DNA from: an uncultured Bacteroidia bacterium
GTDB lineage: Bacteria > Bacteroidota > Bacteroidia > Bacteroidales > UBA932
Assembly (NCBI GenBank): GCA_902785065.1
Contig: CACZXH010000007.1
Location: forward strand, 124,001 to 188,000
Length of the DNA stretch: 64,000 bases
Direction: 5' to 3'
Shown: positions 57,817 through 64,000 of the stretch, in pieces
How positions within the stretch are numbered: position 1 is the first letter of the stretch
Layout of the letters: each line of letters begins with the position of its first letter
Notes under the pieces: model-generated
The model's input: the letters and a program-made list of their open reading frames with translations, nothing else
Databases searched by the model: none
What the model was told of the DNA's origin: nothing
Position numbers and translations under genes: made by a program

Positions 57817-60800
57817 ATGAAAAAGTATTTCTCTTTCTTCTGCGCAACCGTTGCGCTCTTGTTATCTGCTTGTAATAAGCAGGAAAATGACGTCAGTGTC
57901 CCTTCTCCCGGCATGATTCGTTTCGTTGCCGAGTCCATCGAGACCAGGACTACGTTCGGTTCTCCGACCGGCGGCAAGTATCCCACCCTCTGGACGACAA
58001 ACAAGGATGTGAAGGTCGCCGTCAACTATACCAGCTCGAAGGACGTTTCGGTTACTCCTTCCTCGGATTCCAAAACGGCCAAGTTCGAGGCGGAACTCAA
58101 TCTCCCCGAAGCCGGTCCGTACACGTTCATGGCTTTGAGCCCCGCAACGGCCTCGGTCGCGCTCTCCGCGGAGCATAAGAGTTGGAATGTCAATATTCCT
58201 GCGGCACAGACTCCGCTCACCGGGTCTGTTGACGAAGACGCCCAGATTATCGCGGCAGTTACCTCCGCTTACGAGGCGGCTCCCGACAAGGTGTCGTTCC
58301 AGTTCAAACACGTAACCGCCTATGGACACTTCTCCATCAAGAACCTGAATCTCTCTGGTGCTGTCGTGGAGTCCGTCTCCTTGACTTCCAGCGTTCCGTT
58401 TGTGGGCCGGTGGTATTATTATCCCGAGGACGGTACTGTCACAGCCAATAGCGCTTCTTCCACCATTACCCTGACGACTTCTTCCGTCAATGATATCTGG
58501 TTCTCCTGCGCTCCCGCAGACCTTTCCGGTGCAACTCTGAAAGTAACAGTGGCTACGGATAAAGGCTCTTTCGAGAAAACGGTCACTTGCCCGACCAACG
58601 CCAATCTTGACAGCGGTGACGTCTTCAAGTTTGCGGTCGATTTCTCCGGCATCGACATCCAGGCGCCTCAGAAGTATGTCCTGGTTGCGGATGCCGCCGA
58701 CTTGACTCCCGGCAGTCAGGTGATTATCGCCAACCAGGATGACAAGAAGGCGATCAGCACGACGCAGAACGGCAATAACAGAGGTGTCGCGGGTGTGACG
58801 ATTTCCGATAATACAATCCAGGATCCTGCGGACGATGTTCAGCTTTTCGCCCTTGAGGAGGGTACGGTCGACGGCTCTGTCGCGTTCAAGTGTGTCAATG
58901 GCGCCCAGGCCGACAAATACATTTATGCGGCTTCATCCAGTTCCAACTATCTCAGGAGCCAGGACAATTTGGATGGGAACGCCAGTTGGATTGTTGAGAT
59001 CGATGCAAATGGCATAGCCACGATCGTCGCCCAAGGCACGAACACCCATAATGTCATGAGGTATAATACCACGCTGGTTTCGGCTTACGCTTCTACTTCT
59101 TCCGTCACGGGCACCTTGTCCATTTACAAACTGGAAGGCAGCGGCGGCACGGTCACCGAAAAGACTCCGATCAGCACTCCGAAGAACATCGTCGCCACGC
59201 TCAATGCAAGCACACCCAATGCCATTGACGTGGTTTGGGATGCGGTGATGGAGGCTGACTATTACGAGGTTACTGCTACGCCCGAAACCGGTGACGCCAT
59301 TACCAATCGGGCCGACGAAGAGTCCATCACGATCACCGGGCTTGCTTTCGAGACAAAATATACCGTCTCGGTTGTCGCTTATCCTTCCGATACCCAACAT
59401 TATAAGAAGTCTGAGCCTGGCGTTGCCGCGAATACGGTGACCACCGGTACCGGCAAGGGCTCCCTGTCGAATCCTTATACGGCTTCGGAGGCCACGGCCG
59501 CTGTCATTGCCGCCGGCGCGGGTGTCAATATCTCGAACGTCCATGTCACGGGCATTGTTTCCCAGATCGACGAACTTTTGACTTCGGGGTATGGGAACGC
59601 CACCTATTACATCTCTGACGACGGCACTACCACCGACCATTTCGAGATTTACCGTGGTTTCTATTTGGATGGCGCGAAGTTCTCTTCCGAGGACCAGCTG
59701 AAGGTCGGCGACCGTGTGATTGTCTATGGCACGATCGTGTATTTTAAGGGGACGACGCCGGAAATGACCAGCGGTGGACATCTTGTTTCCATCGAACGGG
59801 ACGGTGAGGCCAAGACATTCGGCGCTACCGTTTCCGGTACGACCGTGAGCGCCGAGACCACCGAAGTGACCGTGACGGTTACCGGCAATGTAGACTGGAC
59901 GGCCTCCGTGACCGGCTCCGGCGCAGCTGTCGCCCCGAACTCCGGCACCGGCGCGGGCAGTGTCAAGGTTACCTTCCCCGAGAATACGTCAAACGCCGAC
60001 AAGACCTTTACGGTTACGGTATCGACCACGGCCGATGTCGCGCAGAAGACCTTCTCTTTCACCATTACGCAGAGCAAGCCGGTTTCCGGGAAGAACGTTG
60101 TCTTCGAAGTCGGCGAGGGGAAGGATATCATCTCCATTTTCCCGGCCGTCAAGGATGGCATCAAGTTCGAATATGCCCAGGGAGAGGGTGGAAATGCACC
60201 CGTTTTCTATTCTCCTTTCAGGTGGTATAAGAACAACACGGTCACTATCAGCGGCGCTACGATCAAGCAGGTTGTATTCACCTTCGACAGTGAAGCCAAT
60301 GCAAAGACCATGACTCCGGATTCGGGTAATTATGTCTTGTCAGGAACCGAAGGTACTTGGACAGGAGAAGCTTCTTCTGTCGTCTTTACAAATGGAGAAG
60401 CTGCCGCCCGTTTCACCCAGGTGAAAGTGGTCTACGAAGGAACCGGTTCCGAGACTGTCGGGACGTATACTCCGACGATTGCGTTTGCAAAGTCCGAGGT
60501 GACGATTGAGAAAGGCAAGTCTCTGGATAATGCGGCGACGACGACTTCCCCTGCAGCGGTTACCTATTCTTCTTCCAACACGGCTGTTGCGACGGTCGAT
60601 GAAACCGGAAAGGTTACTGCCGTTGCGGAAGGAACGGCCACGATCACCGCTTCCGTCGAAGCCGTCAATGGTACTTGCACGAAGATCAGCGCCGCTTCCG
60701 AGACCAGTGCCGTCACGGTGACCGCTCCGGCCGAGGGGGTCGTGATGGAACTGGATATGACGACGAAAGCCGCTAAATGCAACACCTACAATACCAGCAC

Positions 60801-61221
60801 GGTATATGGCGACTGGACCATTACCAATGGCGCAAATAACAGTGGCGGCTGGGCCTTCTTCAAGATGGGAGGAAAGAGCGCTACGCTTGCATCGGCTAAT
60901 CCTTGCTTCATCACTAGTGACAAGGCTTCCACCGCTGCGGCCGGTTCGGTCGTCGTCCACCTCCCCTCCGGATCCCTGTCCAAGGAAGGAATGTCTGTCA
61001 ACAGTTGGGGCTTGTATGTTTACTCCGACAAGGAGATGACCCAACAGGTCGATTTTGTCGCGGGTGGTACGATCTCCAATGAGGAAGGAACCTTCGAGTT
61101 CAAACCTTCCTCCGGTTCGACCTGGGCATCGGGTGTTTACTTCAAGGTTTCCTGGGATCTTGCCAATACGACGACCACGAACGGTATTGTCGTAGTGGAT
61201 AAGATTACCGTCAAGAAATGA
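57817..61221 (+). CDS. large multidomain surface lipoprotein (in-frame UGA before a nuclease domain)
   Basis: A 1134-residue lipoprotein: signal peptide MKKYFSFFCATVALLLSAC with lipobox LSAC, a fimbrillin-like domain (about 25-290), a beta-rich domain (about 295-455), an FN3-like domain (about 465-555), an OB-fold domain of DUF6359 type (about 560-660), BACON (about 665-760), a jelly-roll-like segment, Big_2 (about 885-955) and a final beta domain. Composition is Ser/Thr-rich. An ATG four codons upstream is possible. The terminal UGA is followed in the same frame, without another stop, by a Gly-rich linker and a nuclease domain, the arrangement seen unbroken in the paralogue at the window end. 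Confidence 0.82.
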   Translation: MKKYFSFFCATVALLLSACNKQENDVSVPSPGMIRFVAESIETRTTFGSPTGGKYPTLWTTNKDVKVAVNYTSSKDVSVTPSSDSKTAKFEAELNLPEAGPYTFMALSPATASVALSAEHKSWNVNIPAAQTPLTGSVDEDAQIIAAVTSAYEAAPDKVSFQFKHVTAYGHFSIKNLNLSGAVVESVSLTSSVPFVGRWYYYPEDGTVTANSASSTITLTTSSVNDIWFSCAPADLSGATLKVTVATDKGSFEKTVTCPTNANLDSGDVFKFAVDFSGIDIQAPQKYVLVADAADLTPGSQVIIANQDDKKAISTTQNGNNRGVAGVTISDNTIQDPADDVQLFALEEGTVDGSVAFKCVNGAQADKYIYAASSSSNYLRSQDNLDGNASWIVEIDANGIATIVAQGTNTHNVMRYNTTLVSAYASTSSVTGTLSIYKLEGSGGTVTEKTPISTPKNIVATLNASTPNAIDVVWDAVMEADYYEVTATPETGDAITNRADEESITITGLAFETKYTVSVVAYPSDTQHYKKSEPGVAANTVTTGTGKGSLSNPYTASEATAAVIAAGAGVNISNVHVTGIVSQIDELLTSGYGNATYYISDDGTTTDHFEIYRGFYLDGAKFSSEDQLKVGDRVIVYGTIVYFKGTTPEMTSGGHLVSIERDGEAKTFGATVSGTTVSAETTEVTVTVTGNVDWTASVTGSGAAVAPNSGTGAGSVKVTFPENTSNADKTFTVTVSTTADVAQKTFSFTITQSKPVSGKNVVFEVGEGKDIISIFPAVKDGIKFEYAQGEGGNAPVFYSPFRWYKNNTVTISGATIKQVVFTFDSEANAKTMTPDSGNYVLSGTEGTWTGEASSVVFTNGEAAARFTQVKVVYEGTGSETVGTYTPTIAFAKSEVTIEKGKSLDNAATTTSPAAVTYSSSNTAVATVDETGKVTAVAEGTATITASVEAVNGTCTKISAASETSAVTVTAPAEGVVMELDMTTKAAKCNTYNTSTVYGDWTITNGANNSGGWAFFKMGGKSATLASANPCFITSDKASTAAAGSVVVHLPSGSLSKEGMSVNSWGLYVYSDKEMTQQVDFVAGGTISNEEGTFEFKPSSGSTWASGVYFKVSWDLANTTTTNGIVVVDKITVKK
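61219..61221 (+). other. in-frame UGA between lipoprotein and nuclease domains
   Basis: Reading ...ITVKK-UGA-GTSGGGAGGEEPTVSTG. Both sides are open in the same frame. A 6-bp GC hairpin (61229-61244) begins 7 nt after the stop. Confidence 0.75.
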
Positions 61222-61299
61222 GGGACATCCGGCGGCGGCGCCGGGGGTGAAGAGCCCACAGTCTCGACCGGATCCGCGAGTAACGTAAGCGCGACAGGG

Positions 61300-62367
61300 G
61301 TGACCCTGTCCGCTTCGTACTCCGGGGTCCAGTCTTTCCAAGGGGCGGGTTTCTATGTAGGAACGTCCTCCAATCTCAACACGCTGACCAGCGGTCAGCC
61401 CATCTATGCCCAATCCGCGCTTACCATCGGCAGCGGGTCCTTCAACGCGTCAGTCGGTGCACTGAATGAGAATACGACCTACTACTATGTCGCCTTTGTG
61501 GAGGTGCTGGTGAATGGGACCTACAAGGAGGTCTATGGCACCGTGAAGTCGTTCCGGACGCTCTCGACATCGACCGTCGCCACCCTAAACAAAGACTGGC
61601 TGGAGGCGCCGGAATCGCCGGCATCCCTCGGCAGCAAGTACCTGGTGACCATGCGCGGGCAGTTGAACGGAAAGGATGTCCGCAACTACTCCATCCTGTA
61701 TGACCCTGCCCGGTATGCGGCGCTGTGGACGGCTTATGTGTACAGCGATGCCTACCATGGTTCCGGTACGGGTAATGGCTGGACGGTGAATACGCAGATT
61801 CCTGCCAGCAAGCAGACGAGCGTGAAGTACGCCTATCCTTCTGTCGACGGAGTCACTTATGACCGCGGCCATCAGATCCCGAATGCGGACAGAAATGCGG
61901 ATAACAGTCTGCAGAACCAGACCTACTACTGGACCAACAGTACACCGCAACACGCGTCCTTCAACCAGGGCATCTGGAACAACTTGGAGAACCAGGTCCG
62001 GAACATGGTGTCGGGCTCGGATTCCGTCTATGTCGTCACCGGCCCGGTCTACCAGACTGTGGGCGGCAGCGAGACGGTCCGCACGTTCGTGAACTCCTCC
62101 AATGATGACAAGGTCGTCCCGATTCCGAACTACTATTTCAAGGTTCTGCTGAAGGTCCGCCGCTCCGGCGGCACGGTGACCGCCGCCTCCGCCATCGGCT
62201 TCTGGTTCACCCACGAGGCCCACAGCGGCGAGAACTGGCAGAACTTCGCCGTCAGTGTGGACGAAGTCGAACGGAAAACGGGCTTCAATTTCTTCGCGAA
62301 CCTGCCACCCTCGGTGGAGACATCGGCGGAGGCCAACACCAATTGGAATACGTTCCGGAACTTCTAA
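61300..62367 (+). CDS. DNA/RNA non-specific endonuclease domain protein (probably the C-terminal part of the upstream ORF)
   Basis: A beta-beta-alpha-metal nuclease of the NucA/EndoG family. A short FN3-like domain (about residues 1-85) precedes the nuclease (about 95-350). The catalytic motif is YDRGHQIPNADRN, with the metal-binding Asn region YYWTNSTPQHASFNQGIWNNLE. The GTG start gives a protein with no signal peptide. The frame is open back to 61222, directly after the UGA that ends the lipoprotein, so the native product may be one ~1517-residue lipoprotein interrupted by a nonsense codon, or a readthrough product. Confidence 0.75.
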   Translation: MTLSASYSGVQSFQGAGFYVGTSSNLNTLTSGQPIYAQSALTIGSGSFNASVGALNENTTYYYVAFVEVLVNGTYKEVYGTVKSFRTLSTSTVATLNKDWLEAPESPASLGSKYLVTMRGQLNGKDVRNYSILYDPARYAALWTAYVYSDAYHGSGTGNGWTVNTQIPASKQTSVKYAYPSVDGVTYDRGHQIPNADRNADNSLQNQTYYWTNSTPQHASFNQGIWNNLENQVRNMVSGSDSVYVVTGPVYQTVGGSETVRTFVNSSNDDKVVPIPNYYFKVLLKVRRSGGTVTAASAIGFWFTHEAHSGENWQNFAVSVDEVERKTGFNFFANLPPSVETSAEANTNWNTFRNF

Positions 62368-62503: not shown

Positions 62504-64000
62504 CTACAGCCCCCAGTCGGAGGCCTTAAAGGTATCCTTCGGGGCGTTCGGTACGTTCGGGAAGTAGGTCACGCCGGTAATGCGTTCCAGGTCCGCGACG
62601 GACATCATTTCCCGGGAGGTAACCTTCTGACCCTTCAGGGAGTTGCTGTGGGTGCGGACGAAGGCGGCGCACTTGATTTCCGAAGCGGCGCAGTCCTTGA
62701 GCGCCTTGCCGGAATTGCCCTGCTTGGTGCGGATGAGGACATAGTAGAACATCGTGGGCATGGACACGTCGTTCCGTCCACCATAGGAGATGACGGAAGG
62801 ATTCTGCGTGACGCCGTAGCCGTCGGTGTATCTGTCAAAGTAGCAGCCGATGACCTCGTACAGCGTGTCAGCGCACACCTGCGTGTCGACCCAGTCTTCC
62901 AGGTTATTCCAGCCGCCACCACCGGTATTGAATCCGGAGGATAGCTGCGGGGCGATGTTCGTGTAGTAGAATACGTCGCGGTTGGTAGCTGTCGACGACG
63001 TCCGTTCCGCGGATCCAAGCATGTGGCCCTTGTTGCAGCCGCCGCCGGTACTCTTGGAGTTGTATTGGATGCTGGAGGGGATATCCGGATCCTGCCGATA
63101 AGCGTCTGTCCGTCCGCTGCCGCCCACGTACATCGAATGTCTGGGAGCCGCCACCCACACCGGGCAGTGGTATTCGGCGCTATAGCAGACGGTATAGTTG
63201 CGGGCCGTCTTTCCGCCGGGGCCCTTTTCGCCGCCGGCGCACATGTGTATAGCGTAATACTGCGTGGGATCGTCGGAGTTCACCCGGTAATTCCCGGACT
63301 TGGTGATGTTCATCATCGGTGTCTCGAACCAGCCGGGCTGGTCGCCGCCGATGACGATCTCGCCGGCCGGCGTAGTGAAACTCTTGACCTCGCCGTAGTA
63401 GTACTGGTAAGTGGTCCCTTCCAGGACAGCAATGTATGCGCGATAATAATAGGTATGGCCGGCACCGAGTCCGTTGATAGACACATTGAAAGACCCGCCG
63501 TTCAAGTATTCCGCCTGCCAGTCTTCGGACAGGTCATCCGCGGAAAGGCCCCATTCCACGCCGCCGTAAGTGGGCGTTCCCGTGTAGGTGGCAGAAAGCG
63601 TGGCCTCGGTCTGGGTGACATTGGAGGAGCCGCCCGTGGTCACGGTCGGTGTGGAGGGCGTGGTTCCGCCGCCACCGCCGCCGGGGGCTTCGCCGTCCAG
63701 TTTGAAGAAGGTGACATCCTTCTGTGCGCTGGTATAGCAGCGGAACTGTCCGGAGCCTGCGTTGTACTGCAGGAAGCGGGAAGAATACTCAACATTGTAG
63801 GCACGCGTGACACCCTGCGTCGATGTGCTGAATGTCCACCGGTATTTATTCGTCGGTTCGCTCGTGCTGACATTCAGGGCGTTGCTGCTGGAATTCAATC
63901 CATAGTAATTGTTGCCCATCTTCATGGAATAACCGTTGACGGACTTCTCGATGCGGATGTTGTAGGCCTTGGCGGATTCGTATGGAATCTTTCCGTCTGA
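62504..64000 (-). CDS. secreted/surface non-specific endonuclease (partial, N-terminus cut by window edge)
   Basis: The C-terminal 498 residues of a larger protein that stays open to the right edge. The order is a beta domain (visible from SDGKIPYESAKAYN), a Gly linker (GGGGGG), an FN3-like domain (TLSATYTGTPTYGGVEWGL) and a NUC-type nuclease domain. The catalytic motif is CNKGHMLGSAERT, with NKGH in place of DRGH, followed by FYYTNIAPQ and WNNLEDWVD. Eight or so cysteines in the nuclease part suggest disulfides and export. It is a paralogue of the plus-strand nuclease but diverged, and it keeps the linker-nuclease fusion without a stop codon. Confidence 0.85.
   Translation of the reverse strand, partial: SDGKIPYESAKAYNIRIEKSVNGYSMKMGNNYYGLNSSSNALNVSTSEPTNKYRWTFSTSTQGVTRAYNVEYSSRFLQYNAGSGQFRCYTSAQKDVTFFKLDGEAPGGGGGGTTPSTPTVTTGGSSNVTQTEATLSATYTGTPTYGGVEWGLSADDLSEDWQAEYLNGGSFNVSINGLGAGHTYYYRAYIAVLEGTTYQYYYGEVKSFTTPAGEIVIGGDQPGWFETPMMNITKSGNYRVNSDDPTQYYAIHMCAGGEKGPGGKTARNYTVCYSAEYHCPVWVAAPRHSMYVGGSGRTDAYRQDPDIPSSIQYNSKSTGGGCNKGHMLGSAERTSSTATNRDVFYYTNIAPQLSSGFNTGGGGWNNLEDWVDTQVCADTLYEVIGCYFDRYTDGYGVTQNPSVISYGGRNDVSMPTMFYYVLIRTKQGNSGKALKDCAASEIKCAAFVRTHSNSLKGQKVTSREMMSVADLERITGVTYFPNVPNAPKDTFKASDWGL

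Follow-up and report, generated by a model that had tools for sequence, protein, structure and literature searches.

Layout of the locus

The window analyzed here is a stretch of 64,000 nucleotides, C7:124001-188000, from a 50-contig MAG that is 95% complete and probably belongs to the genus Cryptobacteroides. It holds a lipoprotein frame that runs from an ATG at 57817-57819 to a TGA at 61219-61221 and has the N-terminus MKKYFSFFCATVALLLSAC, lipobox included (Table 1). Behind this TGA the same frame stays open for 381 codons, up to a TAA at 62365-62367, and matches the Pfam profile Endonuclease_NS (PF01223) over residues 151-362 (E 5.6e-45). An earlier reading made from the letters of the window (the sequence-only reading) had claimed that a 1134-residue lipoprotein ends in UGA with the frame going on, and that this frame leads into a NucA/EndoG-type nuclease with a DRGH motif; the ORF coordinates agree with the former and the PF01223 match with the latter. 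The 6-bp hairpin that it placed 7 nt after the UGA was found as well, with helix 1 reading CCGGCG-GCGG-CGCCGG, and the paralogue that it described as unbroken is so in the window, with an 898-codon open frame in the whole contig. The pattern TGA-N6-TCCGGCGGCGGCGCCGGGGG, with up to three mismatches, has a single match in the window, and none of 100 shuffled versions contained a match. At locus L092 of another genome (G172), an antisense frame behind the nuclease suggests the same convergent pair with a fused paralogue.

Table 1. Features at the split lipoprotein-nuclease locus, in window coordinates.
Feature	Position	Strand	Remarks
Lipoprotein ORF	57817..61221	+	1134 codons; lipobox LSAC; Ig-like Big_2 and fn3 modules (Pfam); final codon is the UGA
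Last upstream domain	60775..61218	+	No relation to its counterpart in the nearest relative (G011); left boundary approximate
In-frame UGA	61219..61221	+	One of the 72/72 intact split nucleases with UGA
Spacer, 7 nt, UGA to hairpin	61222..61228	+	
Conserved RNA element, 35 nt (model R1)	61227..61261	+	
Helix 1, 6 bp	61229-61234 with 61239-61244	+	Loop 61235-61238
Helix 2, 3 bp	61245-61247 with 61255-61257	+	Directly 3' of helix 1
Downstream frame	61222..62367	+	Gly-rich linker, then repeat-like region, then nuclease
Endonuclease_NS domain	61672..62307	+	Serratia nuclease/NucA/EndoG family; DRGH at 61861-61872
Paralogous lipoprotein-nuclease, convergent	62504..64000	-	Fused without stop; 898-codon frame extends past window

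Conservation of the UGA across genomes

We searched 200 genomes of the same genus with 1 kb of DNA around the window site and obtained matches in 21, the window genome included. Eighteen of these 21 loci match at the stop site itself, and the codon there is an in-frame TGA in all 18 (the window genome and 17 relatives), which answers the proposal of the sequence-only reading to align orthologous loci. Counted from the first base of the TGA, the BLAST match sets in 6-10 nt downstream in 12 of these relatives, and in the other five it starts slightly before the TGA.

A covariance model (R1) was built from the 35-nt element after the stop in 15 loci, with the TGA left out. Searched against 400 genus genomes, it returned 44 strong sites (E ≤5e-6) in 41 genomes, and every one of them, including 29 outside the model set, has a TGA in frame at exactly 8 nt before the start of R1. 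A sense codon in close relatives, by which the sequence-only reading would have recognized an error or a strain-specific mutation, was thus found at none of the 44. From the weaker tail down to E 0.1 we examined 13 matches (L130-L138, L142-L145), and none of the 13 has a TGA at that offset. Further loci with the TGA came from the DNA search (L139, L141 and L050), one of which, L139, is missed by R1.

Frames were measured at 46 loci of this kind (class 1), leaving out L140/L050, a locus where the UGA is seen. Upstream and downstream frames are in the same phase in all 46. The upstream frame spans 420-1412 codons, two of these frames running open to where the contig or locus stops; downstream frames have 276-537 codons, save for two cut by contig ends and L118. 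Over the 46 sites, 12 different codons precede the UGA. A second in-frame UGA lies inside the hairpin of L118, four codons later (L118:6935-6960, genome G032), and could reflect double readthrough or decay. In genome G415, the same element, with identical first 46 codons behind it, stands at the end of two different lipoproteins (L109 and L110, both contig ends), so this genome may carry the nuclease cassette twice.

The wider distribution of the element is narrow. A pattern from which the TGA had been omitted was run against 84,980 species genomes, and all 21 matches fell in Bacteroidales/Bacteroidia MAGs, two of them labelled Rikenellaceae; a TGA precedes each of the 21, of which 20 are apparently contigs already in our set and one (L208) is new. 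The hosts named for these MAGs are deer, goat, sheep, cow or horse. Among 393 genomes of the order, representing 206 genera, R1 had a match at E 1e-4 only in the window genome. A viral origin was considered and set aside, as the exact class 1 pattern, the only class scanned there, had no match in viral contigs.

Other long frames use their stop codons differently. The 275 other mechanical ORFs of at least 300 codons in the fetched regions end in TAA (136), TAG (82) or TGA (57). Against these 57 of 275, UGA occupies the site in all 72 intact split nucleases examined (43 of class 1, 22 of class 2 and seven others, the latter two described below), a count that leaves out L109/L110 for their contig ends and L118 for its second UGA, and that draws on the fetched subset of all nuclease matches.

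The RNA element behind the stop codon

Forty-two class 1 sites without loop insertion were aligned, and all have the UGA. The four bases that follow vary freely, a C stands fifth in 32 of the 42, positions 9-43 are conserved, and conservation is lost sharply after position 43. Third-codon positions within the stem are identical in 41-42 of the 42 sites, and the third position in the loop is free (21/17/3/1). Across 47 sites, 35 of them distinct, 99.0% of cells are paired in the 6-bp helix 1 and 95.2% in the 3-bp helix 2, and five of the nine pairs have changed on both sides, that is, in a compensatory manner. The covariation score is 0.242 vs. 0.093 in shuffled alignments (reached in 0 of 500) and at most 0.061 in slid controls, although it is inflated by sequence relatedness and by an alignment fitted to helix 1.

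Single-sequence folding gives a weaker signal. The 45-nt window site has a z-score of -1.64, with 11 of 200 shuffles folding equally well, and the energies of ten sites are mostly unexceptional (z -0.47 to -2.73). The case for the predicted class 1 structure is thus one of conservation and covariation, not of folding energy. An additional outer stem, pairing the spacer with bases past position 43, appeared in three of ten folds, inconsistently by eye, and was dropped. The class 1 element has no match among the Rfam families.

The downstream and upstream frames

All 44 downstream frames scanned match the Endonuclease_NS profile; the Gly-His of the xRGH motif, among other columns, is invariant across them, and the full motif is present in 42 of 43. 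Among solved structures, the closest are those of Serratia nuclease, NucA and EndoG (1g8t, E 7.2e-20). Ratios of dN/dS range from 0.10 to 0.27 in 13 hand-chosen pairs, two of which are near saturation at silent sites. The downstream frame is under purifying selection at the protein level.

We also assessed whether these frames carry start or export signals of their own. Across 43 downstream frames no start codon lies at a common position: the first ATG, GTG or TTG is scattered over codons 13-98 and the first ATG over codons 21-308, and some ATG precedes the RGH motif in 41 of the 43, again at scattered places. The best 12-residue hydrophobicity mean within the first 60 residues averages 0.66 and reaches at most 1.58, vs. 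an average of 2.31 and a minimum of 1.86 in the upstream N-termini. None of the 43 has a signal peptide or a hydrophobic N-terminus, in keeping with the earlier claim that the nuclease lacks an export signal unless it is linked to the lipoprotein. The linker right behind the UGA, SGGGAGGEEPT, is conserved.

Nucleases with other arrangements offer a comparison. Eleven that have a lipobox of their own follow a TGA in five cases, a TAA in three and a TAG in three; for the 14 that lack a signal of their own and have a long frame upstream, the stop before them is always TGA. Long frames before a TAA occur at L003, L021, L022, L028 and L035, and the nucleases there have their own signal sequence. 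The fused paralogues indicate that the nuclease can be made without any stop. At L194 and L195 (G000:C6 and G003:C47, G000 being the window genome), a nuclease gene with its own lipoprotein signal lies in frame behind a long frame whose stop is TAA; this arrangement is possibly ancestral.

A lipobox pattern allowing Asn before Cys matched 44 of 46 upstream frames, and a stricter pattern matched 35; the frames missed by the wider pattern are the two open ones. Among 560 upstream pairs with a BLAST match, considering one best stretch per pair, 20 match through the C-termini, and all 903 pairs of the 43 downstream frames match. Between the window genome (G000) and its nearest relative (G011), upstream residues 1-1011 share 95% identity, the last upstream domains are unrelated, and the nuclease frames are 98% identical, DNA identity resuming at the fifth base after the TGA. 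Sequence comparison identifies this difference as a domain exchange ending at the element. In a second pair, L091 and L102, identity is 96-100% as far as the TGA, drops to 80-95% over the nuclease and returns to 96-98% between 1.3 and 2.6 kb, and the shift is gradual, not sharp at the UGA. Taken together, these comparisons suggest that the element can be a junction of modules, sharp only in the pair of G000 and G011.

Further split nucleases

A further split nuclease of the window genome lies on contig C30, and the sequence that follows its TGA is a different one. A structure for such sites (class 2) was drawn by hand from seven sites and tested on the same seven sequences: it comprises 12 pairs, with a hairpin enclosed by an outer stem that has at most 7 bp, has 86.9% of cells paired and 13% not, and shows double changes in seven of the 12 pairs and a covariation score of 0.306 vs. 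0.150 shuffled (reached in 0 of 500). A model built from class 2 sites (R2), with the TGA again left out, gave 28 matches in 26 of 400 genus genomes. The best 23 of these have a TGA at the same offset in all cases, and 22 of the 23 have a downstream frame of 249-503 codons. All 22 intact class 2 sites carry UGA, 15 of them lying outside the R2 model set. The spacer after the UGA is 8-9 nt in class 2 and 7 nt in class 1.

Five R2 matches (L284-L287, L290) look like decayed copies with ruined nuclease frames, one having TAA in place of TGA, and one match of the 28 is due to chance. The decayed copies include L285 (G142:C7), and in G405 a relic and an intact copy that share their upstream end are 3.6 kb apart.

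Seven further split nucleases have other sequences after the stop, and UGA is the stop in all seven; at one of them, L258, only 23 codons are present upstream before the contig starts. We also scanned 1.1 Mb of fetched sequence for other frames continuing behind a stop and, reading the results by eye, found no new effector type behind UGA. Most other in-frame pairs there have an ATG close after the stop or are antisense-like frames, two matches to the nuclease motif behind TAA turned out to be antisense frames, and two rows classed as other (L095, L249) are the elements themselves.

Possible decoding of the UGA

Of the selenocysteine machinery, neither SelB nor tRNA-Sec was found over the cut-off in the 44 element genomes. 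For SelB (TIGR00475) the count was 0 of 44, in mostly incomplete MAGs, vs. 2 of 14 controls, and the best profile matches span residues 1-273 only, as EF-Tu would. For tRNA-Sec (RF01852) it was 0 of 44 vs. 5 of 14 controls; the best score was 46.4 bits against a cut-off of 47, and the top four matches are tRNA-Leu or tRNA-Ser according to ARAGORN. A UCA suppressor tRNA was also sought, and no UCA anticodon occurs among the tRNAs named by ARAGORN in the 95% complete window genome (34 tRNA matches). Reassignment of UGA (code 4/25) was rejected because UGA is an ordinary stop elsewhere, ending 57 of the 275 other long ORFs. Ribosome hopping is unlikely given that the codon before the UGA varies (12 codons over 46 class 1 sites), a recurring landing codon having been sought by eye only, and a frameshift is discounted by the single frame that upstream and downstream parts share.

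The tRNA-Trp copy in the window genome is without its 5' end and sits beside a tuf gene in two pieces (G000 C33:2400-4500, L186), probably through an assembly fault. Complete tRNA-Trp(CCA) genes in four relatives (L146-L149) have the D-stem GAAC/GTTC with an A11-U24 pair, numbered in the standard scheme. A pattern that sees one D-loop length found the gene in 65 of 156 genus genomes, 66 times in all (91 gave no match), the 11-24 pair being A-U (U24) in 55 copies and U-A (A24) in 11. Other Bacteroidales contributed 50 sequences, with G24 in 43 and A24 in seven, the latter (L321-L327) from six genera in six families, one of them the element genus's own family. As R1 matches none of the scanned order genomes outside the genus, A24 alone does not bring the element. 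The Hirsh UGA suppressor is an E. coli tRNA-Trp that carries the change G24A (PMC11805395, PMC13092985). We infer that tRNA-Trp reads the UGA in this genus.

Probable readthrough and its alternatives

The UGA and the RNA behind it form a conserved recoding-type element, and are not the product of mutation or error. The sequence-only reading had listed programmed readthrough as one of three options, and the comparative evidence, with its conserved UGA and covarying RNA, strongly favors it. Programmed, RNA-stimulated UGA readthrough that makes a nuclease-tipped surface lipoprotein is in our judgment the best explanation of these comparisons and a probable one. The majority of ribosomes would terminate at the UGA and release the modular surface lipoprotein. 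A minority would be stalled by the RNA fold, the base of which is 7-8 nt past the UGA; with a UGA in the A site, this is the distance at which mRNA enters the ribosome. The stalled ribosomes would decode the UGA with a near-cognate tRNA, likely tRNA-Trp with its unusual hinge pair, and go on through the Gly-rich linker into the nuclease, which the lipoprotein signal would export and anchor, presumably for nucleic-acid degradation at the cell surface. That readthrough occurs, how efficient it is, which amino acid is inserted, what part tRNA-Trp plays and what function results are all things that we infer. Against readthrough stands the restriction of the element to one of 206 genera and, within it, to 41 (R1) and 26 (R2) of 400 genomes. 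The mostly unexceptional folding energies, the scattered ATG codons of the downstream frames, the unpaired cells of class 2, the fused paralogues, the second UGA of L118 and the decayed-looking class 2 copies also count against it.

Other explanations have to be weighed against this one. The element could be a DNA recombination site and the nuclease a silent cassette, expressed only after recombination into the fused form. The existence of fused paralogues would fit, as would the window genome and G011, which differ in the last upstream domain and are identical from the fifth base after the UGA, and the nuclease segment of L091 and L102, which is more diverged than its flanks, though with no sharp change at the UGA. 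We nevertheless consider a silent cassette improbable: all 44 strong R1 sites have the UGA, R1 has no match in the five fused loci (L190-L193, L196) and two own-signal loci (L194, L195) tested, a differently folded element occupies the same place in class 2, and the low dN/dS ratios suggest a regularly expressed frame. Moreover, the stem is kept by compensatory changes and the loop is free, and therefore an RNA suits the pattern better than a fixed DNA site. Separate translation, with reinitiation or an internal start yielding a free nuclease, is a quite improbable reading as well. The frames lie next to each other, the nuclease domain might fold by itself, and the ATG codons ahead of the RGH motif would permit internal starts on sequence grounds; against this, start codons are scattered and no signal peptide follows them, the linker frame is conserved directly after the UGA, the frames are in phase at every class 1 locus measured, and UGA is used exclusively where any stop would do for reinitiation.

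Bacterial SECIS elements have a G-rich loop, as does the hairpin described here. A UGA with an immediate hairpin likewise corresponds to bacterial SECIS anatomy as described in PMC8211752, so that selenocysteine insertion has to be considered; the lack of any SelB or tRNA-Sec match over the cut-off, together with the position of the UGA in a linker with no evident redox site, make it very improbable. Neither of the remaining options of the sequence-only reading, a sequencing error or a recent nonsense mutation, can hold, since the UGA and hairpin are kept in dozens of separately assembled species genomes, from different projects, while the flanking proteins diverged or were exchanged. The MAG is damaged elsewhere, at tuf and tRNA-Trp on C33, yet the downstream frame is under purifying selection and decayed copies, such as the five class 2 relics, look different. 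Any origin of the UGA in a pseudogene or an assembly error of this MAG therefore has a negligible probability.

With readthrough as the preferred explanation, a broader joint reading can be formulated, to which we give about even credence. The genus would have evolved a dedicated, RNA-directed UGA readthrough that is independent of selenocysteine, in which at least two folds and a genus-typical, hinge-altered tRNA-Trp set the nuclease-tipped fraction of domain-shuffled lipoproteins, and in which the element doubles as a junction for module exchange.

Comparison with known recoding systems

Viruses and animals are known to use stop codon readthrough stimulated by RNA structure. Among bacterial genes, selenocysteine is to our knowledge the clear example of a UGA whose decoding is directed by a hairpin. 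In the open-licence papers searched we found neither a bacterial gene whose readthrough is stimulated by such a structure nor a report of the phenomenon for Bacteroidales or Cryptobacteroides; related papers dealt with the codes of crAss-like phages. The Qbeta coat, in which a leaky UGA produces a minor surface extension, resembles our predicted case in that the readthrough takes place in a bacterial host, and differs from it in that coat/A1 is a phage gene; we know of no Qbeta counterpart of the conserved two-stem element.

Qbeta is also where readthrough was first found, as PMC8310308 relates. The same paper describes MuLV gag-pol, with a UAG, an 8-nt spacer and a 3' pseudoknot, and alphaviruses, in which a stem-loop 3' of the UGA raises readthrough. 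Shared with these systems are the stop, the short spacer and the conserved RNA structure, by means of which some ribosomes translating the viral genes make a C-terminally extended fusion (PMC8310308). The element described here would work like these viral signals, its extended product being predicted from sequence; unlike them (viral genes, a eukaryotic ribosome and other folds), it lies in chromosomal bacterial genes, uses UGA only and has at least two folds. Bacterial selenocysteine insertion is similar in its UGA with an in-frame hairpin directly downstream (PMC8211752), and dissimilar in the machinery that the 44 element genomes lack over the cut-off. The nuclease has the same catalytic domain (PF01223) as Serratia nuclease, Anabaena NucA and EndoG, unlike which it is attached behind a stop to a surface lipoprotein. 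Gene callers split such proteins and would annotate an unexported nuclease.

The element represents a compact, genus-wide natural family, with two folds and compensatory variation, for which fused and own-signal paralogues serve as natural controls. This makes structure-stimulated readthrough directly testable on a bacterial ribosome with RF2. Changes known to let tRNA-Trp(CCA) read UGA include the Hirsh G24A change, A9C and a 4-bp anticodon stem, and the genus shares with these cases the tRNA and a change in the hinge region. Unlike in the Hirsh tRNA-Trp, its 11-24 pair is A-U or U-A, with the anticodon CCA, and UGA remains a used stop. A possible co-evolution of the tRNA-Trp hinge with UGA recoding is a separate and testable point.
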